From assembly GCA_022616275.1 (NCBI GenBank), contig JAKEFB010000146.1, forward strand, positions 1 to 64,000: a DNA stretch of 64,000 nucleotides, read 5' to 3'. Source of the stretch: Chloroflexota bacterium (lineage in GTDB: Bacteria > Chloroflexota > Anaerolineae > Promineifilales > Promineifilaceae). Under the pieces are notes generated by a model. The model was not told the origin of the DNA. It saw only the letters and a program-made list of their open reading frames with translations, and did no database searches. The translations under genes and the position numbers were made by a program. Numbering within the stretch: the stretch's first letter is position 1; every line of letters starts with the position of its first letter. Below, one piece after another: positions 111 through 15,552 of this stretch.

Positions 111-148
111 GAAAATAAAACGGGGCTGTCCTGTGATGGACAGCCCCG
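111..148 (-). terminator. Attenuator terminator in the ilvD leader
   Basis: On the minus strand an 11-bp perfect GC-rich stem (arms at 148-138 and 131-121, 6-nt loop at 137-132) is followed directly by TTTTATTTTC at 120-111. It lies 19 nt before the ilvD start, so it would stop transcription before the gene. Its 5' arm plus two loop bases (145-136) is perfectly complementary to 202-193 inside the leader-peptide gene. The two structures therefore exclude each other, as expected for an attenuator. Confidence 0.88.
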
Positions 149-179
149 TGATTTCGTGTGCCTGAGCCAGTTCTGTTGG

Positions 180-287
180 TTATCCTTCCACTGGCTGTCC
201 ATGACTGAACGCTGGTTCCTTAATAATAAGGACCAGGAGGCTAACAAGGACAACCAGAATAAAGAGAGAACCAGCAGAAGCAATCAT
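180..287 (-). CDS. ilvD leader peptide, 35 aa, branched-chain-rich
   Basis: ATG at 287-285, TAA at 182-180, 35 codons. The peptide starts MIASAGS, continues with LFILVVLVSLLVLII, and ends in a polar tail (KEPAFSHGQPVEG). Fourteen of the fifteen residues 8-22 are Ile, Leu, Val or hydrophobic neighbours, as in the leader peptides of the enterobacterial ilv operons. The codons for residues 18-21 form the left arm of a hairpin at 236-212. The stop codon sits 11 nt past the antiterminator strand at 202-193. A ribosome stalled in the Ile/Leu/Val run would free that strand, and one waiting at the stop would cover it. No clear Shine-Dalgarno sequence is seen. An overlapping frame starting with TTG at 283 is Leu-rich but reads through the terminator, so it is less likely to be the leader. 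Confidence 0.8.
   Translation of the reverse strand: MIASAGSLFILVVLVSLLVLIIKEPAFSHGQPVEG
193..236 (-). promoter_or_regulatory. Pause hairpin and antiterminator strand of the ilv attenuator
   Basis: Two elements lie in order on the minus strand. First, a hairpin with arms CTGGTCCTTA (236-227) and TAAGGAACCAG (222-212), 10 bp with one bulge, overlaps the last branched-chain codons of the leader peptide. Second, ATGGACAGCC (202-193) is a perfect 10-nt complement of the terminator 5' arm (145-136). The spacing fits the 1:2 / 2:3 / 3:4 logic of ribosome-mediated attenuation. Confidence 0.8.
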
Positions 288-461: not shown

Positions 462-3400
462 TTACAAAGGCCAGGGTGGCGTCTGGCCCGAGTAAGTTAT
501 CACGAACAGGATGTCTTCAATCTCCTCGTTCTTGAAGCGGTTCTTGATCTCATCCGTGTTCGGCAGCGCCAGTTCCCAATCCTGGAAAGGCGCTTGACCA
601 ATCATCCCGGCCCAACTCGACGCGTTACCCCGGCGCGTGCTGATCACGCCGTTAACCGACGTGGCGCCACCACCTACCGTCACAGGATTGCCCTCTTCAT
701 CATCATAACTAAAAGTCAGGTGCTCCACGGCAACTTCAAACTCAGGCAGGCCATCTTTTCTGGCAAAGTACAATGCTACCTGCTCGATCTTCAGCTCGTC
801 AACATTCGGCGGGAAGTCTGCCCGGTCCGTCTTGAAGCCCACAACCATAGGCGTAGCCGTTTGCTCCGGGTTGTGCCAGTCGTACCATTGGTCGGCGAGC
901 TGGTGGCGGAAGCTGAAGGCTCGTTCTAGACTTACATTGCGATCCAACCGGCGGACGATCTGTTGGCGATAATCAAAACTGTTGAGCGCGGTGTACTCAA
1001 TCGTGATCAACACGTCGGCAATGGTACGAAAGTCGAATGGGTTGGCCGCCTTAGGCATTTCAAACTCCCAGGCGGTGTCAACCCCCATGGACTCAAAAGG
1101 CAACAGCAGCTCCGGCTGCGAGTCGAGTTCAAACAAACCCGTCGCATTGAGCGGCGAACTTAAGGCCACCGATTCTGGCTGGCGGCGTACGGCTATGGTC
1201 TGGAAGGTATCGCCGCCAATGGCCACCCGCGAGACGCCGCTGGTGGAGAGCGTGGCCCGGATGCCGTGGATCGGCGGCACAAGGGCGATGACCGACGTCC
1301 GCACCCGCTTGATCAGGCGCAGGTAGTGGCCGGGGAAGTCACGATCAAAGAGCGCCATTGGCGTGGCAAAGGGTAGCACACCGCTCTCGCGGAAGCGCTG
1401 GAACTCCACGGGGGCCAGCCGGGCCAGGGAGATACTCTTGACGAGCTGCAGCTTGCGCTTATTCGTCTCAAAAGCGTACTGGTCGAGCTGGTAGATGTCC
1501 TGCAACAGCCGGGCAGAGCCGGTCAGCCCCTTGCGGTCAGGGGCCTGGCCGTTGCTGCTGGCGCTGCCCTGGGCCAGCGGTTGCCAGTAGTCGGCCTGGA
1601 TCACCGCTGGCGGCCGCTCCTGGCGTTCAAAGGCCAGTTGGCTTTCCGCCATCCGGGCCATGGCCGTGGCCTGCTGCAAGAAATAGCTATAAACCCGGCC
1701 CAGAACGCCGCTCATCCACTCGTACAGTTGGGCGTTGGTAAACTTATTAGCTAAGAACTCTACGGTGGCTCTGGCATTTTTTAGTTGCGTTGCGGCAATA
1801 GCCTGCTCTTGTTCGACGATGAGCCTACGATCCGTAGCCAGTTGGATCTGATCCGTGCTGATGAGAACCTCTTGTCGCGCCAGATCGCGCTGAAACTCCC
1901 ATTCTTTCGCACGTCGCTCGTAACTGGCCATGGTGGAGGCGATAGCTGAACTGGTAGCTACCGCAGAGGCAGCGTAGGAGAGTCCCTGAGCGGCTGTTGC
2001 GAAGGTTTCCTTGCCACTGGTAAACAAATTGGCAAGGCTGAAAGTTCCTGATGCGGCAGCTATCGCATACAGGCCGGCGGCCGTTGTCTGCAATCCCAAT
2101 TCAGCCCGTTGTAGCGCCAGCGCTGTTGCTTCGTTCTCGCTGAGATCGCCATAGATCAGCTCGTTGTAGTGGTCTACCTGAATAAAGGATTTATCCTTCT
2201 GATGCTTCGCTAACGTCTCACCGTCTTTTGCTTCCGTAACCCGCAGTTGCTGCAGGAGAGTTCCCTGGTCGGCCAGGTCGCTGTCCTGTCGCGCTTTGAG
2301 GATGTTATAACTTTCAGCGTCAAACTTTTCCAGCGCCGCCAGGTACGACCCCTCGATCTGCTGGGCCAGGTTAACGAGCTGCTTCGCCCGCTCAATAAGC
2401 GACGTGTAACGATAAGGTGTCGGCTGCACAGAGACCATGCCGGCTGGAGCAAGGCGACTTTCCTCGAAGGTCTGGAGCTGCCGCATTATACCGGCGATAT
2501 TGCGACCGTGCCGTATTTTGCCGAGGTTCACGGCCGCGTGTTGGTTCAGGGCGGGCGGCAATGGGTTGGCCTCGATTCCAGGCGCGGCGGGCAACAGCCC
2601 TTGCAATACGGTATACAGTTCTTGTGCGGTGATGTACAGCGTGCGAGCGCGGGCAACTGACTCGCTGGTATCGGCCGTGAATTCCGCATCGGCGTAGTCC
2701 AACAAGCAGCGCAAGATAGACATCAAGGTATAGCAGGTATAGGCATTGGCGCGGGTTTGCGTAGCAATGTTGTGGGGATCCAGCGCTGTGGTCAACCAAT
2801 GTGTCGTTCGCTGATAAAGTGTGCCGGTGGATTGTTCGACTACCAGGCCGTAGTAAATCCTCCGCTCCTGCGTAGCCGGCAGATCGTGACCATAGACCGT
2901 CCGGAACCAGGCGAGCGCGGCTTCAAACTGCCCTGCCTGCTGTAATTGCAACGCCAGCTCCATGGGGACAAAGTAGTAAGCTTCTTGCAAATAGAGCGGC
3001 GGAGTAGACGTGTAATGAGGCGGTGTCTCGTCATCAGTATACTCAGAGAAGATGTCACGAATCTGCGTTTGAAGGGCAAGCAGCTCTGCGTCAGCTAGCT
3101 CTTCGGTTAGAGTTTGAGGCAGTCCAGGCTGGCTGCCCACATCCTCCAGGTATTGCGCTGCCTCGGCGCGGGCTTGATCGGGGGTTAATTGTGTATATTC
3201 ACGTAGTCGCTTGACTAGGTTATAGAATGCTTGCGTCGAATCGCCTGGTTGGGCCGGAGCTTGCGAAACGTTTCGTAAGCCTGGTAATAGTAAATTTTCG
3301 GGCCAGAGAAAGACGCTCATCGCTGCTTGCCAGGTGGAATAAGAGCCCATCCACTCCCATTCGGTGGAGACAGTCGTAGGGTCCTGGAGCGTCCAGGTTC

Positions 3401-6400
3401 TTCCACTGGTGAAGGTTCGACCAGACCAGTCCATTAAAGCAACAAAGAGGCCCTGGATGGTTTCAACCGCCTGCTCAAGACGCGTCGTCATCCGGTAGCT
3501 GCTGGCTTTGACATCAATCAACAACAGTTGGGTGAGTTGGTCGGGCCCCTGAGGCGTTGCCACAACCAGGGTATCGCGCAGTAGAGGCAACGTTGCCTGT
3601 TCAGTGGCATCCACAGCCGTGCGCAACGCCTGAATGAGAGTCTGCTGTTGATCGATCCGCGCCTGAAGTGTGCTCCGCCAAAGCTGACGCGCCGGCCCAC
3701 TGGCCCGCCAGGGGCGGGCTGCTACCATGTACGGTGTGGCGGCGATGGCCAGTTCCACTCGCAGCCCTGAAGGATTGGTTGTGGTTCCCTCATTGCATAC
3801 CACAAACTCCAGGGTGTTGACATTGGCGACGAAGCCACTGTTAATGGACAGGAGGGTGAACGCAGCGAACCCTGTAGCGGTAAGCCCTAGACTCTGGCCG
3901 TTGAGCTTTACGTCCTCCAGGACGTTGTCTACGGCAACCCTGGCTGTTATCCGAACAGTCGCCGGGTCGAACCCGGTCAGGTCGAACGAGGTGTGATAGG
4001 TATAGTTGCCAGGTGCGTCGCCGGTTGCTTCGTTGGTCTGGGGACTGATCCATCGGCTCATATCGCTGTTGGCGATCCAGGCAGCGCCGACGGGATAGCT
4101 ATTCTTCGTCACATAGGCGCTGGCAGTCGTTGGTCCGGCCGGCGTCGCGCTGATCGTCCAGTGGGGGTCAACGGTTCCATCGGAGAGGGGAACGCGGTTC
4201 GCATCCAGCCCGGTGGAATAGAGAGTGGGAGTTGGCGCCGCATCTAACGGCGATAACTCAAAGTAGTCAGGACCCAGGGTGATATTGGCAGCGTTCTCCT
4301 CGGTACGCCAGGCCTGAAAGCTTTGATACTTTTGAACCTGCACGAGAATGGAATAAAGTTCATGCCATTCTGTTGGGAGCACAGGCAGGTTGCTGCCGAC
4401 GAGAATACAAATCCGAACCAGATAACTGAACGCATCGTGGGCGAGGTTGATGGCCGCGAGTTGGGACGTGATATCGGCGCCTTGTTGCCGTTGTTGATCA
4501 AGGGCCAACAGATCATCGGGCGATTTTCCGAGGACAGTCTGGAGGATGGTATCCAGCCCTTCTTGGACTGAAGCAGCATCCTCGCGCAGCTCCTTCAGGT
4601 CATTGAACCAACCCTGCAGCTTGTTTATTCTGGTTGTATAGAGGTTGTAAGCGGCATCGGTGGAGACCTTATTTCTAAAATCGTCTGGCGTGAGCAGGTC
4701 TGGATCGACGATGGGTGGTATCCCGGCGGGTGGAGTAGCTGGATAGTCCTCTTCTTGCCAAAGCGTGCGCAGGCGGGCGAGCTGCCAGCTCAGGAATGTC
4801 GGGACCACCGCCAGGCTGATAGCGCTGCTGTCGGCGGTGTAATTGATCGTGAAATTGCCTGAAAGCCCGCTATTGTTCTGCGGCTGCAGAATGACAGCGC
4901 CGGCGGCGCTGGCTCTTTGTCCTGAGGCTACTAGATCCGTTCTCTCCGCGTCGCGATAAAGAACAACTTGAAAGGCCGCGTCGGAAAGCCTTCTCAGGCT
5001 GACGTAAACGAATCCGTTCAGATCTGTATTTCTCCCCCATGCCACTCCGTCAAGGTTCCAACGCGTAATTTGCCCCTGCGCATCGCCCAGTTTAGCGCCG
5101 ACGGAAAGGGCATCACGGGTGGTATCTACCAGGCCAAAGAGCTGCTCTAGAATTTGCTCATTGATAGCATTCGGCTCAGACGGCACGGCGTCGGGATCGA
5201 GTAAGAGCAAATCAAGTGGATCAGGGTGCGTCGTGCCCAGTTCAATACCTAATCGGTCTGCCAGCGCCAGACGTTGTGGCGGAGGGGTTGTTTCGGGTGG
5301 TACCGGCAGGTAAGTACGGGCCAGGCGAATCTCTTCATACGAGGTGCCGATCTGGTTGAGCAGGGCGGTGTACGCGGCCCAGTTATAATCTGGGGCCGGC
5401 GTCACATCCGGCAACAAGTAACGGCGCAGAACTTCGATACAGAGGCGAATCTGGCGTACCTGTTCGGTCGCTAACGGTTTATTCGCCAGAACTGCCAGAT
5501 CGTCGAAGGGCTGATGAAACTCCCCACTGAGATCAGCGGCGGTGGGTGTTTGACCGGCCACGGGCGTCTGACCTGAGATAGTGATTCTTGGAATTTGCCT
5601 GGCGAAGCGAAGCAAATCATAAAGGTATGACAGGGAACTAAGGCTGTCAGGATCTGGGCCGGTGAAACTAAGCTCTAACGTCACCGTTAAAACCACTGTC
5701 TTCCAAGTCCCGTTGGTATTTTGGCAGGTGAAAGTCACCGTACGTTTATCGTCAACAGGATCAAAGGGAACGAAGATAGCGGCCGCACTCCAGGTCCAGA
5801 CCCCGGGATCACTGGTCGCCTGTAGTGTCACTGTGCCAGACCCTCCACCTTCGACAGTCCAATTGACAGAGGAGATTCCCACGCCTACGCCATGACCAGG
5901 GACGCTCTCGTTGGCCGTAGAGGCACTCCCACTGACTGAGATGGTTGCACCTTGCTCTGTTGCCGCGACCCTCACCTGATAACCGGGTGGGTTCGGGGTG
6001 AAGAGGGGGGGCTTGTCATTCACTCCCGTTAAAGATAGCTGAGGGGGAGCGTCTACCAACGTCAGGATCAGCGGCGGCGGCTGGCTCCAACTCCTCCGGT
6101 TACCTGATTTATCTATGGCCTCAAACGTAAGTGTATGCTGTTGCCCGCTGGTAATGTTTGAACCGATCTGGCACGAGGCATAAGCGGTCCAACTTGACCA
6201 ATCGCCGGGCGCGACTGGCGTTGCCGGTGCGAATCCACCATTGTCTACTTTTATCTCCACCAGGTCCACACCGGTTCCACCGGGATCACTTGCGCTTCCC
6301 GTGATCGCGACATTGGCCTGGCCGCCAATCGGTGCAGATACGGGCAAGGGATTGGGTGGCGGCGTGATAGTTAGAGTCGGCGCCGTGACATCAGGCCGTA

Positions 6401-6815
6401 AGGTAATCATTGCCGAGGCTGTGGCAAACTGCCCGTCGCCGTACTCAACTTTCGCCGTCACCCATACTGGGAGTTCGATAGCAGAAACCGGCAGGCTTCC
6501 AGAGCAAGACCAGGGAAATAAACCACTAGCGTTGGGTTCGCCGCTGATAATGGCCATCAACTCTGGATCATTGCCAATCCGAACCTTTACCTCATCAGGA
6601 GGAAAATTTCCTATCGTCCATGGCATCGTTACCCTGGCCATTCCAGTAAGCGTTACAGGAATACGGATAAGCCGGCTTAGAATGGCAGCTCCATCTGGCG
6701 GTGACGTGATTGTAACTGTTACCTCAGGGGTGCTTTCAGAAACCGCTAGCGAAGATGGGCTTTCTGAGACAGCGGTGGTCATTTCCATTGCACTTCGAGT
6801 GATGTGCGTATGCAT
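462..6815 (-). CDS. TcA-like insecticidal toxin complex subunit (pore/translocation), 2117 aa
   Basis: In Tc toxins the A subunit pentamer binds cells and injects the effector made by the B-C cocoon through a helical channel. The C-terminus matches TcA. Residues ~1470-1740 are an alanine-rich helical region with TcA-like channel features (including NKFTNAQLYEWMSGVLGRVY). Residues ~1765-2060 resemble the TcB-binding beta domain (DFPGHYLRLIKRVRTSV, then an Ile-rich strand series ending near GQTPPWPL). The N-terminus differs from Photorhabdus TcdA: residues ~35-390 are three or four Ig/cadherin-like beta domains and no VRP1-type region was recognised, so receptor contacts are probably different (inference). 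ATG at 6815 has a good AAGGAGA site. It is the last of three co-directional genes, after the TcB-TcC fusion and a small protein. Family assignment is confident; the target host is unknown. Confidence 0.85.
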   Translation of the reverse strand: MHTHITRSAMEMTTAVSESPSSLAVSESTPEVTVTITSPPDGAAILSRLIRIPVTLTGMARVTMPWTIGNFPPDEVKVRIGNDPELMAIISGEPNASGLFPWSCSGSLPVSAIELPVWVTAKVEYGDGQFATASAMITLRPDVTAPTLTITPPPNPLPVSAPIGGQANVAITGSASDPGGTGVDLVEIKVDNGGFAPATPVAPGDWSSWTAYASCQIGSNITSGQQHTLTFEAIDKSGNRRSWSQPPPLILTLVDAPPQLSLTGVNDKPPLFTPNPPGYQVRVAATEQGATISVSGSASTANESVPGHGVGVGISSVNWTVEGGGSGTVTLQATSDPGVWTWSAAAIFVPFDPVDDKRTVTFTCQNTNGTWKTVVLTVTLELSFTGPDPDSLSSLSYLYDLLRFARQIPRITISGQTPVAGQTPTAADLSGEFHQPFDDLAVLANKPLATEQVRQIRLCIEVLRRYLLPDVTPAPDYNWAAYTALLNQIGTSYEEIRLARTYLPVPPETTPPPQRLALADRLGIELGTTHPDPLDLLLLDPDAVPSEPNAINEQILEQLFGLVDTTRDALSVGAKLGDAQGQITRWNLDGVAWGRNTDLNGFVYVSLRRLSDAAFQVVLYRDAERTDLVASGQRASAAGAVILQPQNNSGLSGNFTINYTADSSAISLAVVPTFLSWQLARLRTLWQEEDYPATPPAGIPPIVDPDLLTPDDFRNKVSTDAAYNLYTTRINKLQGWFNDLKELREDAASVQEGLDTILQTVLGKSPDDLLALDQQRQQGADITSQLAAINLAHDAFSYLVRICILVGSNLPVLPTEWHELYSILVQVQKYQSFQAWRTEENAANITLGPDYFELSPLDAAPTPTLYSTGLDANRVPLSDGTVDPHWTISATPAGPTTASAYVTKNSYPVGAAWIANSDMSRWISPQTNEATGDAPGNYTYHTSFDLTGFDPATVRITARVAVDNVLEDVKLNGQSLGLTATGFAAFTLLSINSGFVANVNTLEFVVCNEGTTTNPSGLRVELAIAATPYMVAARPWRASGPARQLWRSTLQARIDQQQTLIQALRTAVDATEQATLPLLRDTLVVATPQGPDQLTQLLLIDVKASSYRMTTRLEQAVETIQGLFVALMDWSGRTFTSGRTWTLQDPTTVSTEWEWMGSYSTWQAAMSVFLWPENLLLPGLRNVSQAPAQPGDSTQAFYNLVKRLREYTQLTPDQARAEAAQYLEDVGSQPGLPQTLTEELADAELLALQTQIRDIFSEYTDDETPPHYTSTPPLYLQEAYYFVPMELALQLQQAGQFEAALAWFRTVYGHDLPATQERRIYYGLVVEQSTGTLYQRTTHWLTTALDPHNIATQTRANAYTCYTLMSILRCLLDYADAEFTADTSESVARARTLYITAQELYTVLQGLLPAAPGIEANPLPPALNQHAAVNLGKIRHGRNIAGIMRQLQTFEESRLAPAGMVSVQPTPYRYTSLIERAKQLVNLAQQIEGSYLAALEKFDAESYNILKARQDSDLADQGTLLQQLRVTEAKDGETLAKHQKDKSFIQVDHYNELIYGDLSENEATALALQRAELGLQTTAAGLYAIAAASGTFSLANLFTSGKETFATAAQGLSYAASAVATSSAIASTMASYERRAKEWEFQRDLARQEVLISTDQIQLATDRRLIVEQEQAIAATQLKNARATVEFLANKFTNAQLYEWMSGVLGRVYSYFLQQATAMARMAESQLAFERQERPPAVIQADYWQPLAQGSASSNGQAPDRKGLTGSARLLQDIYQLDQYAFETNKRKLQLVKSISLARLAPVEFQRFRESGVLPFATPMALFDRDFPGHYLRLIKRVRTSVIALVPPIHGIRATLSTSGVSRVAIGGDTFQTIAVRRQPESVALSSPLNATGLFELDSQPELLLPFESMGVDTAWEFEMPKAANPFDFRTIADVLITIEYTALNSFDYRQQIVRRLDRNVSLERAFSFRHQLADQWYDWHNPEQTATPMVVGFKTDRADFPPNVDELKIEQVALYFARKDGLPEFEVAVEHLTFSYDDEEGNPVTVGGGATSVNGVISTRRGNASSWAGMIGQAPFQDWELALPNTDEIKNRFKNEEIEDILFVITYSGQTPPWPL

Positions 6816-7326: not shown

Positions 7327-10300
7327 TTAAATTTTAGGTCCAGTCCGAAGAAAGACTTCGTGCCAGTTTATATGTGGATGCTCTTGCTCCAAACGTAGCT
7401 GATATTTTGTTCTCTCCTGGGCTCCCCAGATTGCTACGGCAGCAAGAAGTCCACCCACTGCGCCCCCCGCCAGGCTTCCGGCCAGTCCAGTCAGGAAAGC
7501 GGTCGCCCCCGTTCCCATAGTGAAGGCAGAGCCGCCAATCACTGCGCCAGTCCAGCCACCTGCCTCACGCATACCCTGTTCAATCAGAGGTAGGTCTGAA
7601 TTCATCTCAACGCTTTGGTTGTAAGCAATACACATATTATCGTATGTCTTATAAACTCCATAGGCCGTCAAGACTATCCCTGCGGTAGTGAACGTCATTT
7701 CCGACGATACGAACCCTGCGTTTGAAGGTGGCTTTGCTGATGCTTTTGCCTCAGCGATGGCAAAATTTTCAGTCAACTTCGCATTCTTCACTACTTCTAG
7801 TTTCCCTGTTTCTGGATTTGTCCTGGTTTCATCATTTAGCTCAAAAAAGTAGCTGTAGGATCTGTTAAGAGCTTTCAATCCTCCCTTTTTATCCGTCAGT
7901 AAGCCTGCATCCTCATATTGTTTAGCAGCTTCGCTAAACGCCTGAGAAGTGGACTTATCGGACCACTTAGCTGGTCTATTCAAATTTTGATCTCTGCTGA
8001 TTGCGCTATGTTCTCCGCGTTTTGCTGGATCAGGGCTCCCCTTTGTCTCCAAAAACTGGCTAGGCGCATCTCCCTTTTTATAGCCTGCAATATTGTTTTC
8101 CGCCCATTCGTTCTGCACAGGATGATGTCCCTGCAAGTTTACACCGCCCGTTCGCTTGCTCTGAGGGATATTGCCCTGGTTACGATAGGAGTCAATAGCA
8201 TAACGTTCGTGAGAAGCCGGAGTGGTGTCGGCTGGTGTTTGATTCGTGCTAGGTGGGGTGTCGCTTGTTCCAGTCCTGTCAATAAAAGCAAGAGGATTAC
8301 CTTTTACGTAAACATAAAGATTTAACCCTGCCTGAAACCCAAGGGGATCGCAACTAGCCCATCGCGCCAGCCAGGATGCATAGTAACGGGCGCCGTGGTA
8401 ATATAATCCACTCTCCTCGTCGCGCTCCTTGCCGGTGAAGCGGTAACGCTTCCTAGGGAAGCTGCCGAAGCTTGTCTCGCCGTACGGCGTGTACTCCTCG
8501 CGGTTGATCCAGCCACCGTCGTCGCCAACGACAAGATTGCTGCTGCCCAGGTGATCGCCCAGATGGTATTTGACGGCCGGAGTCGCGTCATCGGGGAACG
8601 GCGCGCCGGCGCGCACCAGGGCGACGCGACTTTGGTTGTCCATAACGTGTAGGGTGTTGTTCTCACGGACGGTGCTACCTTGAACGATGCGTTGATATTC
8701 GAAAACACCTTCCACATAAACGGTGACCTCATACTGCCCGCCTTGCTTACGGACCAACTTCTTCACCCGTTGGCCACTCGCATCATAGAGGTAATGGGTA
8801 TGGACCGACGGCTCAGCATTGCCGGCCTGCGTGCGATAGACGCGCATACGATCGCTGTGATCCCATTCAAAGTGGCGCGACGTGTTCTCGTCTGTCAGGT
8901 TGCCATTGGCGTCGTAAGTATAATGATGGATGGTCAGGCCAATAGTCACCGTTGCCAGGCGATTATTTTTGGGCATAAGCGCCAGGTCGCGGGTAAAACT
9001 CCCTTGATCGGCCGTGTGGCGTAACCGGGTGAGGTTGCCGGCCAGATCGTAAGCATATTGCTCTGTGTACGCCTGTGCGCGAGTCAGATCGGCGCAGCGC
9101 GGCGTATCGTCCCAGGGGACAGGCGGCGTGACATCGCATTCACGGCCGGTAGCCGAAAGCAGGCGATACAGCGCGTCATACGTAAAGGCTCGATCCAGGG
9201 AATCCGGTTTGGCCGGCAAGCCGCTTCCAGGCGCGCGATCCTGAAGCGCGGTGATGTTCCCCACCAGGTCATACTCGTAGCCAAAATCTTGCAGCGGCGC
9301 GGCCGGGGCGGACGGGTGGTAGGTCAATGGCGCATCTGGCGGTATATCGTATCGCTCACTGCGCAGCCGTACCAGGCGGAAAGTTTGCGGGTCATAAGCG
9401 TAACGGGTCATCACGCCGTTGCCATAGGCAATCAACAGCCGCTGGCCTTTGGCGTTGTAGGCGATGCGTTCGACGTAAATCGTGCCGTCCAATTCGACGC
9501 GCTCCAGTGCGCCGGCGCGATTATAATAGGGTTGTAGCAACTTGCGGGCGCCATCTACAGCCTGCGGGTAGCGCATCGTTTTGACGCGATTTAACGCATC
9601 ATGGGCCAACACCGTTTGATAAACGGTGGGATCCAATAACGTGTTGGCATAGTCGTCGAGCGGGATGCCGGCCAGCGGCTCCCAATTCACCCGGTAGGCC
9701 GGTACCTGCCAGTTCGCCGGCGGTGGGTCGAAGACAGAGAGTATTACCTCATCGCTGATGACCTGCCGCGCCTTCTCGAGAATATTGCCTTTAAAGTCAT
9801 AGGCCGGGATGGTCAGGCTTCCTGCTTCGTCATAGCGCCTGTAGAGCTTGCCCAGTAAATTGGCCGGCCCGGCCAATGCCGGATCGAGGCTGTCGCCGTA
9901 AATGAGATGCTGTCGCAGGGTGAGTGGCTCGCCCGTTTGATCCTGCATCCAGAGACGGATGGGACGGTTCAAAACATCGTAGGCGTGCAGAAGCAGAGCG
10001 CCTTTACTATCCCGCTGCTCGACGGGGTTGCCGGCGGCATCCAGAATCGTGCGCCGTACGCCGGCATCAATACTTTCAATGCGCAGTGGGCGGTTCGCCA
10101 GATCGTATAGGTGGTTGAATGCAATCCGGCCCAAAGGATCGGTAATTGCCAACAGGTTGCCACCAATGTCGTAGGTGGAGTAAGTATGATATTCTTCGAT
10201 CATTGGGAAAGGATCGTCGGGGCTGGGCTTATTGCGGTTGCGCTCAACGCTTTCGATCGTGCGGCCGAGCGCATCTACCACGATGCTTGCCGGCGTGTCC

Positions 10301-13300
10301 CAATGGTGTTGGTAACTAGCCGAGTCGCCTGGGTGCGTGCGGCCGGCATTATCATTGGCGTCGTAAGTGTAGGCCTCCCACGGCGTTGGTTCAAAGACAT
10401 CAGGATCCGTCAGGTCAGTTGGTACGCCATGGACAACGCGCTGTTCTGAACCGTCTGGGTTGACTGTCCAGATCGTATGCCCGCGCGGGTCGTAGTACAG
10501 CGTCGCCTTTTGCCCCTGGGCAGCGTCCGGTTGGTATTCCCAGCCGCTGGAGAAATAGGGCTCGTATTTTTCGACGACGCGCCCCTTGTTGTCATAGACC
10601 TGCCAGCCGCTGACCACCACACGTGGCGGATCATTGGCAGAGCGCTGTCGCCCGGTGACATCATTCTTTGTACCGGCTTGGTCATCTTGGTCAGCAGGCA
10701 ACACACCGTCGCCGAAGGCCGGGTCGCCGAAGACGACGTCCTCGGCCTGTGTCCGTCTCTGGAGCAAGCGTCCAAAGCCATCCGAATACTCCACGCTTTC
10801 GATGGTCTCGTCTCGCTCCGGCAGCGGCACGTCAGTTTCGCTCACGTGATGAACGCGTTTGAGCGTGCGAACGGAGATGGGCTGGACACGATCGGCAAAG
10901 GCAAGAAAGTCGTAAACCATCTGAACGCCAGGGGCGTCGAGCGTGTCGCCGACGTTTTCATTTACCTTACCCATGACGGCCGTGCTGGCCAGGAGACCTA
11001 AGGGGGTGAAGGTGAAAGCCGTGCGGTTGCCGTTGGGATCAGTTACCAGGTTTAGCTGCATCACGCGGTAATCATAGGTTGCCTCGGTGGTCAGGCCGGC
11101 CGCATCGGTCGCAGTAATGGGCAACAAGTCGTAGGTATCATAGGTGACGGACGCGTCGCGGCCGAAGGGATCGCGCGTGCATTGAACCAACCCGCGCCCT
11201 TTTCCCTCCGGGTCGTCGTGAAAGTCGTACCGGCGTCGCTCGGTGGCGGCAAAATAGCCGGCGGCAAAGACGGTAGCATCGCCCGGGATGCCGTAGCCCA
11301 CGAGCGTGATCTCCATGCCCGGCCGGGTCGGGTCGGCCGCCTCACTCACCGGCAGCAGGGCGCGAAATTTGTCTGGATATTCTGCTGTTGGCCAGCCGGG
11401 AGTCGCGGTGTAGACCTCGATTTCCTGGACGGCCGGGCTGTCATAAGGCGCCTGGTGAATGAGCAGCCGGACCGCGCTGGTAGTGATGGCCGGGAAGCGA
11501 AACTTGCGCCACACCCTGTCGTTGCCGGTCACCACGCCGCCGGGAACCGTGACCCAGTCGGCGCCGTTCCAGTACTGCACCTCAAAGTCATTCACCGCGT
11601 AGGGCGAAGTCAACTCCTCCGTCGGCTCCACGAACGGTCCCGACGGGTCCTGGTGGAAGAAGACGTCCACCTCGTCAATCGTTTGCAGGCCCTTCAGGTC
11701 AACCTGTAACCAGCCCGGATAGGCGAACGGCTGCTGGCCTTTCCAGTGGTAACCGATCCGGTCGCCGTCAATGGCCATTCTGGGCGGCCAGGGCTGGATG
11801 ATTGACGAGGCGCTGGCCGTTCCACCATTCGCAGCCAGGGCCACGTTGCGGCCGCTGCCGCTTTCGTAAGCCTCAATTTCTACCAGGCGGCTGTACCCGC
11901 TTGGGGAACTATGCACCAGCACGCGGATCTTGTCCGTGGTAATCGCCAGGCCGGGAAACCTGCGCCAGACATTGTGGTTGCCCCGCACTTCCCCGCCAGG
12001 AATCGTCACCCAGGCAGCGCCGTTCCAATATTGCACGTCAAAGTCGGTGATGCCGTGCCGGACAAAAGTCAGCGTTTCCGTCGGATCAACGGGCGGTCCG
12101 AGGCCATCCAAAGGGTCGTCTTGGGGCGTAAAAACGTCAATCTCGCTAATGGTTTTGCTGCCGGCAAAATCAACCTGGATCCAGTCGGGATAGACCTGGT
12201 GGGTGTTATCCGTCCAGAGGCCCGGCCACGTCGCGCCTTTGCGGTCGCCATTGATCACGGCGCTGGGGGAACCATCCCGGTCAAAGGTTGACGAGGCGCT
12301 GGCCGTCGCGTTCCTGGCCGCCAGGGCCACGTTGACGCCGGCCGGCAGGGCGGCCGGCCGCAGGTAGGGCGGCTCTTCGGGCGGATTCAGCACCTCATCG
12401 CCGCTCTTGTAGGCCTCGTGCAAAATCTCCGGCGTCAGCACCAGGCTCTCCGTCCGCGCCAGCGCCCCGTAGTCGCCGAGCTGGCCGAAAGGCAGGCCCT
12501 GGAAAGCCGGCCCGTCGTAAAAGTTGAGCGACTGGCCGATGAGGCGGCGCGCGGCCGAACCGTCCAGGATCTGGCCGTGCAGCGCGAAGGCGCTGGCCGA
12601 GCCATCGTTTAGAATTTCGTAGGTCGTGGTGCGGGCGACACGGTCAACCATGTAAATTTGTTCGTCGTCGCGCCGGGCGTAGTCGCTGGCCGTGCAGGTC
12701 GCCAGGTACGGCTCGCCGGCGTCCCCGGCCGCCCGAAAGTCCCGGCCGCGAGGGACGGCAACGCTCGTCTGCGAGCGCGGCTGGCCATAGAGGTCGTAAT
12801 CGTCGGTGAAGGAAAGCTGGGTCATTGGCTCTGTGCCCCGCTCCCATTGGGTGGTCCGTTGTCCCAGGGCATAAGCGAAGAAGATGGGCGAGGCGTTGGC
12901 CAGGCCATCGCCGGGGGGCAATTCCTGGCGCACGCCGTACAGTTGCTCGGTGACGGTATACGGCCGGTCCTGGCGCGCCGTACCGTCCAGGGCATACAAT
13001 TCCGTCCGCAGCACGTGGCCGCGCAGGCTGCGCAGGGCATCCCGCTTCGCCCGGCGCGGCAAGCCGTTCAAGAACGCCGTCATCGCCTGGGGGCGGGCCA
13101 GCGCCGGCGGGTCTTCCGGCCAAAACTCCGAGGAAAAATCGGTCTCACGCCAGCCGCCGAACTCGTCGCCAATCGGCCCTTGATGGAACCAGGTGCGCGT
13201 TTCCGTCGGCCACGCGTAGCGGTCCGGCTCGCTGTCCAGAAGCGCCGCGAAGCTGTCTCGTCCAAACGCCAGGCTGGCCGGCTGCTGGCTGGCGGCCTGG

Positions 13301-15552
13301 TATTCGGCAAGCGTTTCCGTGTCCCGCTGGTCAACCCGGCCGAAGCCGCGGAATTCTCGCTCGGCCCCGTCCCAATAGCCATGATGGTAGCGATAGGTTG
13401 TGGTTAGCCGGCCGCCGGAGATGGCATCTATCACCTCCACGCGGGCGACGACCTGCACCGGGAACGGCAGCGGCGTCTGCCAGCGGGTTTGCGGCTGTTG
13501 CTGATCGGCCAGATAACATTCGGTGGACGGAACATAGTGAACGTGGGTGATGGAACCGATGTGGTTGTCCATCTCGTTGAGGAGATAGGGCTTGACCCCA
13601 CCGGTGAAATCAAGAAAGAACATCCGCGTGCGCGACAGCCCGTCGGCGTCGGCGCTCCACAGCAGGCCGCTGATCCCTGTGCCGCACAGGTCTACCAGGC
13701 GCACGGCGTCCACGTCTGATACGGGCGGCGTGCCGTCAATGCAGGTGGGCTCGCTCCAGCCGTTGCCGCTGCGGTTGATCCACAGCGTGACGGTGGTATC
13801 GCCAACGTGTACCAGGTCGGCCGCGCCGTCGCCGTCCACGTCGCCCAGCAGCAGGCGCTTGGGATCGTAGCCATCCGGAAAGCGCGGACAGTCCTGCATC
13901 ACGACGCGCTTGCCCCAGTTGCCGTAGCCAAGCGCGGGCCAGTACTCGATGCGGCCGTCATGCACCAGGACAATATCCTGCAAACCGTCGCCGTTCATAT
14001 CCGCCCACTTCACCCGAGGGTCGGAGAAATTGACGTCCGGGAATTCCGGCAGGGTGCGGCGTTCGACCCAGCGCGTGCCGTTCCAGCCCTCGTGCGGATC
14101 GTTGAAAAAGCATTCCAGGCGGCTGCCGGAGCGGATGGCGTCGGTGACGCCGTCGCCGTCCAGGTCCACCAGACGGACCTCAGGGTCTTTCAGATCAAAA
14201 GTCGGCGCCTGGCGATAAGCCTGAAACGACTTACGGTCCCACAGCCCGCCAAAACGCAGCGGATAATAACCGGAAAGGCCGTCACGGTGGACCAGCAGGT
14301 CCAGCCGCCCGTCGCCATTGGCGTCAATCAGTTGGACGCCTGGGTCGGCCAGGCCGACACCGGCCGGGGCTGTGGTCATCTCGCGCGGCAAATCGAAGTG
14401 GCCGCCGCCCAGGTTGCGCCAGTAGCGGACCGTGCCGTTCATTTCCAGGATGTCGGGCAGGCCACGGCCGAAGAGGTCGGCCAGTTCCAGGTCGGGGTTG
14501 GCCATTGAGCGGGCCGGCAAGTCGCGGCCGTACACCGGGAAGAAGTCGCGCTGCGCCGGCTCATATTTGGTGTAACCGAATTCTACCGGCGGCATTTCCT
14601 CCGTGAGCTGGCCGTCATAGCCGGTCACCTTGAACTGGCTGAGGAGTGCAACGCCGTTAAGCGGCAGCGATTCGCTGAGTTCGGTCCGCTGGTCCAGATA
14701 AATCAGGTCGTAGGCGCGGGTGAGCCGCTCCTGATCGGCATGAGTACGAATTTCAATGCGGGTGCAGCGCTTCCTGGTGCGGATTTCAAAACCAGCCCGA
14801 TAATCGGAAAATGGGTCAGGCCGGTAGTCCGAAAACGGGTCAGGGGGAAGAGCGTAGTTAAAGGTGACTGAAACCAGGTACTGGCTCGCACCCTGGGCTC
14901 CATAGTCCACGTAACGAATGCGCTTTAGATATAGTTGATCCCAGCAATGATACGTATCTTCGCTCGTATCGCGCTCGTATTCGTAGACGATGCGATTGCC
15001 GAACACATCCTTGGTCTGCGACAACTGCCAGGAAAAGACTTTTGTGCGATCGGCCGGATCGGCCACCACGGCCGGGTCGGCGCCGGCCGCGCCTGGCGTA
15101 CCATAGACACTCACCAGCCCATCTTTACTCCGCACTTCCCAATAATCGTTGTCGCCGTCAACGTGGTGGACGATGCGCGCGAACAGGCCCTCGGTTCGGG
15201 GACGGTAGGTGCGGCGATCAGGCTCTTCTTTTACCAGAACCAGATCTTCCGCGCCGGACAAGATAAAGATATCGGCCGCGTCGTCATAACGAGGAACGCC
15301 TTTGGAAGTCTTGCGGCTGATTCCGGGGACGCTCAAACTCCAGCCAAGTCCAAACGGCCCATTGCCGTTGCCACTACTGTAAGCAAGGCTTAACTGGGGT
15401 TGAAAGCCGTTACGGCCGGGCGGCACGGCGATGGGCAGGGTGAAGTTACCCGTGCCGGTGTGCAGGTCCGGGGCGAACTTTTCGCCAATACCTTGTAAGG
15501 CGCCTCCCCCTTTGGGGAGGGAAATAGCCGATTGACTCGATGAATTACCCAC
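7327..15552 (-). CDS. TcB-TcC fusion toxin: SpvB, FG-GAP, discoidin x2, RHS core, HNH/EndoVII-like tip; 2741 aa
   Basis: GTG start at 15552 with GGGAGA 7 nt upstream. Order of domains: SpvB (from ~12, SLPKGGGALQGIGEKF); FG-GAP/TcB beta-propeller repeats ~345-650 (NGDGRLDLL, DLDGDGVTD); TcB middle domain ~660-770; two F5/8-type discoidin domains ~1077-1390 (NVALAARNATASASS, VQYWNGAAWV); YD/RHS repeats; and the RHS core ~2365-2425 (YRFTGKERDEESGLYYHGARYY, then the DPLG cleavage region). After the core comes a variable tip, with GHHPVQ near residue 2476 and a later GEHSAISRDQNL. This resembles HNH/EndoVII nuclease toxins with SHH/GHH signatures. The last ~130 residues are a glycine-zipper hydrophobic segment. 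B and C fused in one chain, with discoidin (sugar/lipid-binding) domains inside the shell, is unusual. Confidence 0.88.
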   Translation of the reverse strand: MGNSSSQSAISLPKGGGALQGIGEKFAPDLHTGTGNFTLPIAVPPGRNGFQPQLSLAYSSGNGNGPFGLGWSLSVPGISRKTSKGVPRYDDAADIFILSGAEDLVLVKEEPDRRTYRPRTEGLFARIVHHVDGDNDYWEVRSKDGLVSVYGTPGAAGADPAVVADPADRTKVFSWQLSQTKDVFGNRIVYEYERDTSEDTYHCWDQLYLKRIRYVDYGAQGASQYLVSVTFNYALPPDPFSDYRPDPFSDYRAGFEIRTRKRCTRIEIRTHADQERLTRAYDLIYLDQRTELSESLPLNGVALLSQFKVTGYDGQLTEEMPPVEFGYTKYEPAQRDFFPVYGRDLPARSMANPDLELADLFGRGLPDILEMNGTVRYWRNLGGGHFDLPREMTTAPAGVGLADPGVQLIDANGDGRLDLLVHRDGLSGYYPLRFGGLWDRKSFQAYRQAPTFDLKDPEVRLVDLDGDGVTDAIRSGSRLECFFNDPHEGWNGTRWVERRTLPEFPDVNFSDPRVKWADMNGDGLQDIVLVHDGRIEYWPALGYGNWGKRVVMQDCPRFPDGYDPKRLLLGDVDGDGAADLVHVGDTTVTLWINRSGNGWSEPTCIDGTPPVSDVDAVRLVDLCGTGISGLLWSADADGLSRTRMFFLDFTGGVKPYLLNEMDNHIGSITHVHYVPSTECYLADQQQPQTRWQTPLPFPVQVVARVEVIDAISGGRLTTTYRYHHGYWDGAEREFRGFGRVDQRDTETLAEYQAASQQPASLAFGRDSFAALLDSEPDRYAWPTETRTWFHQGPIGDEFGGWRETDFSSEFWPEDPPALARPQAMTAFLNGLPRRAKRDALRSLRGHVLRTELYALDGTARQDRPYTVTEQLYGVRQELPPGDGLANASPIFFAYALGQRTTQWERGTEPMTQLSFTDDYDLYGQPRSQTSVAVPRGRDFRAAGDAGEPYLATCTASDYARRDDEQIYMVDRVARTTTYEILNDGSASAFALHGQILDGSAARRLIGQSLNFYDGPAFQGLPFGQLGDYGALARTESLVLTPEILHEAYKSGDEVLNPPEEPPYLRPAALPAGVNVALAARNATASASSTFDRDGSPSAVINGDRKGATWPGLWTDNTHQVYPDWIQVDFAGSKTISEIDVFTPQDDPLDGLGPPVDPTETLTFVRHGITDFDVQYWNGAAWVTIPGGEVRGNHNVWRRFPGLAITTDKIRVLVHSSPSGYSRLVEIEAYESGSGRNVALAANGGTASASSIIQPWPPRMAIDGDRIGYHWKGQQPFAYPGWLQVDLKGLQTIDEVDVFFHQDPSGPFVEPTEELTSPYAVNDFEVQYWNGADWVTVPGGVVTGNDRVWRKFRFPAITTSAVRLLIHQAPYDSPAVQEIEVYTATPGWPTAEYPDKFRALLPVSEAADPTRPGMEITLVGYGIPGDATVFAAGYFAATERRRYDFHDDPEGKGRGLVQCTRDPFGRDASVTYDTYDLLPITATDAAGLTTEATYDYRVMQLNLVTDPNGNRTAFTFTPLGLLASTAVMGKVNENVGDTLDAPGVQMVYDFLAFADRVQPISVRTLKRVHHVSETDVPLPERDETIESVEYSDGFGRLLQRRTQAEDVVFGDPAFGDGVLPADQDDQAGTKNDVTGRQRSANDPPRVVVSGWQVYDNKGRVVEKYEPYFSSGWEYQPDAAQGQKATLYYDPRGHTIWTVNPDGSEQRVVHGVPTDLTDPDVFEPTPWEAYTYDANDNAGRTHPGDSASYQHHWDTPASIVVDALGRTIESVERNRNKPSPDDPFPMIEEYHTYSTYDIGGNLLAITDPLGRIAFNHLYDLANRPLRIESIDAGVRRTILDAAGNPVEQRDSKGALLLHAYDVLNRPIRLWMQDQTGEPLTLRQHLIYGDSLDPALAGPANLLGKLYRRYDEAGSLTIPAYDFKGNILEKARQVISDEVILSVFDPPPANWQVPAYRVNWEPLAGIPLDDYANTLLDPTVYQTVLAHDALNRVKTMRYPQAVDGARKLLQPYYNRAGALERVELDGTIYVERIAYNAKGQRLLIAYGNGVMTRYAYDPQTFRLVRLRSERYDIPPDAPLTYHPSAPAAPLQDFGYEYDLVGNITALQDRAPGSGLPAKPDSLDRAFTYDALYRLLSATGRECDVTPPVPWDDTPRCADLTRAQAYTEQYAYDLAGNLTRLRHTADQGSFTRDLALMPKNNRLATVTIGLTIHHYTYDANGNLTDENTSRHFEWDHSDRMRVYRTQAGNAEPSVHTHYLYDASGQRVKKLVRKQGGQYEVTVYVEGVFEYQRIVQGSTVRENNTLHVMDNQSRVALVRAGAPFPDDATPAVKYHLGDHLGSSNLVVGDDGGWINREEYTPYGETSFGSFPRKRYRFTGKERDEESGLYYHGARYYASWLARWASCDPLGFQAGLNLYVYVKGNPLAFIDRTGTSDTPPSTNQTPADTTPASHERYAIDSYRNQGNIPQSKRTGGVNLQGHHPVQNEWAENNIAGYKKGDAPSQFLETKGSPDPAKRGEHSAISRDQNLNRPAKWSDKSTSQAFSEAAKQYEDAGLLTDKKGGLKALNRSYSYFFELNDETRTNPETGKLEVVKNAKLTENFAIAEAKASAKPPSNAGFVSSEMTFTTAGIVLTAYGVYKTYDNMCIAYNQSVEMNSDLPLIEQGMREAGGWTGAVIGGSAFTMGTGATAFLTGLAGSLAGGAVGGLLAAVAIWGAQERTKYQLRLEQEHPHINWHEVFLRTGPKI

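Follow-up and report, generated by a model that had tools for sequence, protein, structure and literature searches.

Does the short, hydrophobic reading frame in front of ilvD at one end of a Chloroflexota contig belong to a switch that senses amino acid supply? Attenuation by a leader peptide is a textbook mode of regulation, known chiefly from Proteobacteria, Actinobacteria and Firmicutes, and a sequence-only reading of the window (the whole stretch of 64,000 nucleotides analysed here) had proposed one at this place. Our analysis leads to the same interpretation: the leader is very probably a classic four-strand, ribosome-mediated transcription attenuator of a branched-chain amino acid (BCAA) operon headed by ilvD. 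The case is built on the reading frame, the terminator, the complementarities between strands, their conservation and covariation, and the gene context. The host had been described as Chloroflexota-like, and RpoB supports this, with 70% identity to Chloroflexi bacterium OLB15, which we take to be a member of Anaerolineae, and 56-60% to six other named Chloroflexi. RpoB bit scores were lower against ten genomes of other phyla, partly because some of those loci hold a partial gene.

The features of the leader are collected in Table 1. G000 denotes the genome to which the window belongs, and G014, G015, G045 and G046 are four relatives that carry the same type of ilvD.

Table 1. The ilvD leader and its surroundings, in window coordinates.
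Feature	Position	Strand	Description
Promoter-like site	319-347	minus	TGGACA, 17 nt, TACACT; 31 nt 5′ of the leader start codon
Leader peptide ORF	287-180	minus	ATG, 35 codons and TAA at 182-180; peptide MIASAGSLFILVVLVSLLVLIIKEPAFSHGQPVEG
Strand 1	257-248	minus	CTGGTTGTCC, codons 11-14; pairs with 200-191 in the minimum-energy fold
Nested hairpin	236-212	minus	CTGGT/ACCAG and CCTTA/TAAGG with one bulged A; codons 18-26; inside the 1:2 loop
Strand 2	202-191	minus	200-191 (GGACAGCCAG) pairs with strand 1; 202-193 (ATGGACAGCC) pairs with strand 3
Strand 3	149-136	minus	149-138 is the terminator 5′ arm; 145-136 (GGCTGTCCAT) also pairs with strand 2
Strand 4 and T-run	131-112	minus	131-120 closes the terminator; T-run at 119-112
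ilvD start	92-3	minus	first 30 codons; the window and the contig end there

The 35-codon frame is present as proposed. Fifteen of its 35 residues are Ile, Leu or Val, the codon content expected of a leader-peptide attenuator, and among the 796 ORFs of 20-60 amino acids in the window it is the one with at least 10 Ile, Leu or Val in a stretch of 12. Similar frames are present in relatives. Inspection by eye revealed no clear Shine-Dalgarno site upstream of the start codon. The promoter-like site matches the consensus at 9 of 12 positions, and similar hexamers were seen by eye in some relatives; two such sites occur within positions 1-1000, where 0.6 would be expected. We infer that this site is the leader promoter.

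Between the leader ORF and ilvD lies a terminator with a stem at 149-120 and the tail TTTATTTT. From the end of its T-run to the ilvD ATG (92-90) there are 19 nt, the distance given by the sequence-only reading, and its stem measures 12 bp instead of the 11 bp given there; 27 nt lie between the terminator and ilvD. On the minus strand of the window, a single site has a perfect 11-bp hairpin followed by a T-run, and this is the leader terminator; the plus strand gives three hits. The 10-nt complementarity of 202-193 to 145-136 is perfect, as claimed. A hairpin had also been reported over codons 18-21 and counted into a complete set of exclusive stems. The hairpin exists and is longer than described. 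The set is complete as well, with other members: the four-strand arrangement of 1:2, 2:3 and 3:4 pairings is obtained once strand 1, which had been omitted, is counted. In the predicted folds the competitor of the antiterminator is strand 1, not the 236-212 hairpin. The latter, for which each of the four close relatives has a counterpart in the same position (synonymous-shuffle p = 0.075, calculated for G000 alone), may possibly act as a pause hairpin.

The large gene that precedes the leader (465-6815, also on the minus strand) encodes a TcA-like protein (PF18276, PF20220), and further upstream, at 7330-15552 on the minus strand, is the gene of an SpvB/RHS protein that is TcB/TcC-like and may end in an HNH-type domain (PF15652). 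From their sequences, both resemble parts of a Tc toxin complex. The frame of the TcA-like gene, with its last codon at 465, runs to 462, and 174 nt separate it from the leader start. Intrinsic terminators being frequent, the terminator might simply belong to that gene and the hydrophobic ORF might be there by chance. We regard this as very unlikely, because the leader-terminator unit is repeated beside ilvD or ilvB in relatives, the sequence 5′ of the leader is unlike in the four close relatives (by eye), the window holds no second peptide of this composition, and covariation links strand 2 to the terminator.

The genes that follow the leader make the amino acids that it would sense. The complete ilvD lies on another contig of the same genome, C280. 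This contig opens with 101 nt that are shared, letter for letter, with the end of the leader contig; the interruption looks like a k-mer break in the assembly. On C280 the order, all on one strand, is ilvD, ilvB, ilvN, ilvC, leuA, a methyltransferase gene, leuC, leuD, cimA, leuB and ilvE. Joined through the 101-nt overlap, the leader thus appears to head a single ilv-leu operon for the synthesis of Ile, Leu and Val. In G046, the leader, ilvD and ilvB are all on the same contig.

The ilvD of this genome (L007, on C280) and of the four relatives forms a distinct type. It shares 71-76% identity with copies from Nitrospira, Binatia, some Acidobacteria and some Chloroflexi, and about 39-51% with other ilvD genes of its order; within the phylum most values are 42-56%, with 66-68% in two members of the class. 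Judged by these identities, it is perhaps a transferred gene that was placed under a resident leader.

The sequence-only reading had suggested a comparison of ilvD leaders across relatives, and in this comparison the leader frame, the terminator and the stem complementarity were all kept and found to covary. We examined 45 of the 57 genomes of the order (the remainder were not fetched, or their genes were broken, missing or of low score), and a leader with a terminator was present in 44, before ilvD in 7 and before ilvB in 37. All four genomes that share the ilvD type of the window (79-88% identity) carry the unit before ilvD, and in G042 and G055 it precedes an ilvD of 45-47% identity. Among 43 ilvB upstream regions, 37 contain the unit; the best ilvD match of each of these 37 genomes is found on a separate contig or at a distance of 11 kb or more. 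Of the six ilvB regions that lack it, five belong to genomes with the leader before ilvD instead (G000, G014, G046, G042 and G055), and in the sixth, G053, no leader was found in the 741 nt upstream of ilvB. G015 and G045, with the leader before ilvD, complete the 44.

In an alignment of the 44 order leaders, which had been selected by the presence of a U-tailed terminator, 98.8% of terminator cells are paired, two-sided changes occur in 8 of 10 pairs, and none of 500 shuffles was as good. For the antiterminator, 74.4% of cells are paired, against at most 46.4% when the strands are slid; its first four pairs form in 43 or 44 of the 44 leaders, and 4 of 7 pairs show two-sided changes. The covariation score of the antiterminator, 0.206, lies near the 0.179 obtained from a 3-column slide, and its outer three pairs often fail, with columns 122, 123 and 124 unpaired in 16, 31 and 30 of the 44 leaders. 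Columns 120, 193 and 204, one each in strands 2, 3 and 4, read G/C/G in 37 leaders, A/T/A in 3, G/T/A in 3 and A/T/G in 1. The pair counts do not draw on another alignment, A1, in which the promoter region was misplaced.

A separate observation concerns ilvB. In 10 of the 43 ilvB upstream regions (L323, L327, L329, L331, L332, L333, L339, L343, L344 and L347), ilvB is separated from the BCAA attenuator by a second terminator, in most cases with a stem like GCAGAAAAC...GTTTTCTGC. At the nine loci looked at, an ORF, often rich in Gln, Ser or Thr, reads into this terminator, and six contain a ACGGCCGT palindrome. The element is perhaps a second attenuator.

The peptides themselves differ among relatives in length, ends and sequence, while Ile, Leu and Val interchange. 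This bears on the possibility that the ORF encodes a working small membrane protein and that the terminator serves some other control. The peptide is indeed strongly hydrophobic and resembles a membrane helix. Nonetheless, a functional protein is hard to reconcile with such freedom of length and sequence, and the leader peptide of Escherichia coli ilvL shares the composition; we consider the membrane protein highly improbable.

Control of the terminator by a T-box or a riboswitch, that is, by an RNA that binds tRNA or a ligand and not by leader translation, was weighed in the same way. The genome does contain six T-box matches elsewhere (L001-L006), two of them above the gathering score. The leader itself has no match to the T-box covariance model, neither the window nor any of 12 loci that hold related leaders reached an Rfam gathering score, and an Ile/Leu/Val-rich frame recurs in 44 genomes of the order, so that we attach almost no probability to this explanation. 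A DnaX match in the window (E 0.87, on the other strand and below the gathering score) was taken as chance. The longest frames 3′ of the six T-box hits match thrS, trpE, an alaX-type gene, leuS (at a distance of about 740 nt), serS and valS. With T-box matches near valS and leuS, two tRNA-sensing devices may divide the work in this genome.

We then asked how the attenuator would fold. The leader of the window has a folding z of -6.1, which none of 200 shuffles equalled. For the 2:3 duplex, the number of shuffles per 1000 that were as good was 0 in G000, at most 6 in G045, G046 and G014, and 100 in G015. The corresponding number for the 1:2 duplex was 11 in G000 and 11-16 across G000, G014 and G015, and this duplex was no better than shuffles in G045 (249 of 1000) and G046 (638 of 1000). 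A strand 1 that bears control codons and would protect strand 2 is present in G000, and among the five close leaders it is not significant in G045 and G046. The number of strand 2 core bases held by upstream codons in the minimum-energy fold is 8 of 8 in G000 and G014, 7 of 8 in G015, 4 of 8 in G045 and 3 of 8 in G046. The 2:3 and 3:4 pairings exclude one another, as they should if 2:3 is an antiterminator; the exceptions include the G015 shuffles and the unpaired outer columns. In the five leaders the stop codon begins 7-24 nt past the first base of the strand 2 core, which, for an assumed ribosome footprint, places a terminating ribosome over strand 2.

When a ribosome stalled at codon 10 or 12 was represented as a mask, the pre-terminator transcript formed 2:3 in all five leaders (P 0.44-1.00); the probability was at most 0.05 without a ribosome and at most 0.15 with a ribosome at the stop codon. 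Later stalls failed to form 2:3 from codon 14 in G046 and from codon 16 in G045, and in G015 formation was weak from codon 14. Equilibrium folds of the full-length leader yielded the terminator every time, stalled or not, as they did for E. coli ilvL, so that the switch would rest on timing. With a looser mask measure applied to 67 leaders, stalling exceeded stopping by more than 0.2 in 37 and the opposite held in 2. This measure gave no separation for the window's own leader and a reversed one in G046, and it did not separate E. coli ilvL cleanly. Shuffling synonymous codons inside the ORF gave p of at most 0.05 in 13 of the 67 leaders (mean -14.8 versus -11.6 kcal/mol), a signal that is weak for each leader taken singly. 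The modelled ribosome masks are supportive of the mechanism, not decisive.

These observations suggest the following sequence of events, in which promoter activity, leader translation, stalling, timing and read-through in the cell are what we infer. When charged Ile, Leu and Val tRNAs are ample, the ribosome would reach the stop codon and cover strand 2, and the 3:4 terminator would form. If one of these tRNAs is short, the ribosome would stall in the Ile/Leu/Val run and cover strand 1; strands 2 and 3 could then pair before strand 4 is made, and RNA polymerase would continue into ilvD. In a leader that is not translated, 1:2 would form and the terminator would persist. A different route, in which leader translation acts on ilvD through translational coupling or Rho and the intrinsic terminator plays no part, is compatible with the sequence and with the 27-nt terminator-ilvD gap. 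Against it, a U-tailed terminator follows all 44 order leaders, which were chosen by that feature, and the stem covaries; we judge this route to be extremely unlikely. Conserved frame, terminator and covarying complementarity together favour the attenuator that the sequence-only reading had proposed.

To what extent does the device occur beyond the order? In the phylum, 346 of 400 genomes had an ilvD match, and the survey took 148 of the best-scoring ilvD places listed, from 145 genomes; G033 and G036, already examined, were omitted, and two of the 148 (L174 and L194) did not pass a check of the frame, the wrong strand having probably been read. Of the 148 upstream regions, 23 contain an ORF that has Ile, Leu or Val at 9 or more of 12 positions, and a strict terminator match followed it in 18 of these; the remaining 125 regions had such a match in 13 (Fisher p = 7e-11, uncorrected for relatedness). 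On the opposite strand, none of the 148 regions reached 9 of 12.

A set of 34 leaders was used for pairing statistics, four of them from Verrucomicrobia, Acidobacteria and Obscuribacterales. One leader above the cut-off (L300) was dropped, one below it (L295) was added, and the weaker Acidobacteria candidates L017 and L027 were left out. The mean 2:3 energy was -17.3 kcal/mol for a leader's own strands and -13.2 kcal/mol with swapped partners, and none of 20,000 permutations, uncorrected for relatedness, was as good. In 27 of the leaders at most 15 of 300 shuffles gave a 2:3 duplex as good, 7 exceeded this number, and 8 of the 34 ranked first among all 2:3 partners. Outside the phylum, a BCAA-rich leader ORF and a terminator precede ilvD at L018, L056, L082 and L083 (Acidobacteria, Obscuribacterales and Verrucomicrobia).

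A covariance model built from the 44 leaders was run against 298 genomes of the class, with stricter filters and rough E-values; it had matches at E of at most 0.01 in 173 of them, 17 of which are members of the order. The model found one significant copy in G000, where the other matches reached E 0.41 and 0.65 and had no adjoining branched-chain gene. Apart from G000, 29 loci from this search were fetched, and ilvD (12) or ilvB (16) lies downstream in 28; of the 15 loci outside the training genomes, 14 flank ilvD or ilvB. The exception, L389, has from about position 1480 a BCAA leader and terminator before another gene, whose product looks, by eye only, aminotransferase-like. Tandem matches within a few hundred bases were observed in L387 (G475), G552:C3 and G693:C1. 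In L387 both copies resemble BCAA leaders with terminator-like hairpins, and ilvB is next.

Attenuation at E. coli ilvL, the leader of ilvXGMEDA, is an established mechanism. This leader, too, has an Ile/Leu/Val-rich peptide and a U-tailed terminator before a branched-chain operon; it belongs to another phylum, stands before other first genes, and is likened to ours by layout and composition. The nearest precedents are the ilvD attenuators of Listeria monocytogenes (rli60) and Staphylococcus aureus. In rli60, a BCAA-rich leader peptide lies right before ilvD of a long ilv-leu operon, with four segments that include a terminator and an antiterminator (PMC5864092). That system, in a member of the Firmicutes that also places it under CodY, was tested by mutating the start codon, the ribosome-binding site and the terminator and is proven by experiment (PMC5864092); ours is predicted from sequence. 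S. aureus has a Leu/Ile-rich leader peptide and a terminator before ilvD of its ilv-leu operon; its proposed antiterminator pairs with the poly-U tail and leaves the terminator stem intact, whereas 2:3 here takes the terminator 5′ arm (PMC5794164).

Similar designs are described before ilvB. As summarized in two reports, the Corynebacterium ilvBNC leader (ilvB-II motif) combines a BCAA-rich uORF with antiantiterminator, antiterminator and terminator hairpins; it differs in being actinobacterial, in preceding ilvB, and in that its terminator and antiterminator overlap in a GCC trinucleotide, compared with a 10-nt strand here (PMC11857589, PMC10272879). The ilvB-OMG motif, placed in 'various bacterial phyla', and the Leptospira ilvB motif are proposed attenuators in which the uORF 5′ of ilvB has many BCAA and Thr codons (PMC10272879). 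They differ from our family in that neither the window leader nor the 12 related-leader loci has an Rfam match.

The sequence-only reading had called a complete set of exclusive stems uncommon outside Proteobacteria and Actinobacteria, a view that these sources make outdated. A 2010 paper, according to which no leader-peptide system had been shown outside those two phyla, itself added Firmicutes (PMC2965389), and the Listeria and Staphylococcus cases concern ilvD directly (PMC5864092, PMC5794164). In other reports, Rfam families were studied in genomes that include 5 Chloroflexi, with gamma-proteobacteria suggested as a possible source of Rfam amino acid attenuators (PMC3766115); one paper deals with Actinobacteria (PMC1262725), one rates an ilvD motif of Veillonella as a weak candidate for a riboswitch (PMC8632094), and one mentions Chloroflexi merely as poorly sampled (PMC4833913). 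Among the literature matches listed, as represented by titles and abstract openings and with Lopatovskaya et al. 2010 outside that scope, none describes an ilv attenuator in Chloroflexota.

The design is thus already known from other bacteria; the interest lies in how far it extends through a Chloroflexota class. Taking the surveys together, we lean towards the view that an unnamed leader-peptide RNA family controls BCAA synthesis across the whole class and is probably ancestral there. It would hold the head of the operon while the first gene changes (ilvB, an ilvD of 45% identity, or the distinct ilvD), would sometimes occur in tandem, and would have look-alikes before ilvD in Verrucomicrobia, Acidobacteria and Obscuribacterales. 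If this is true, then together with the Listeria and Staphylococcus cases it would make leader-peptide attenuation of the BCAA pathway a general bacterial device. A conserved, countable leader family in a mostly uncultured phylum could provide an annotation rule for ilv genes there, and its many natural variants lend themselves to the question of a common or a repeated origin of such switches. The family also suggests that transcription and translation in these bacteria are coupled closely enough for attenuation.
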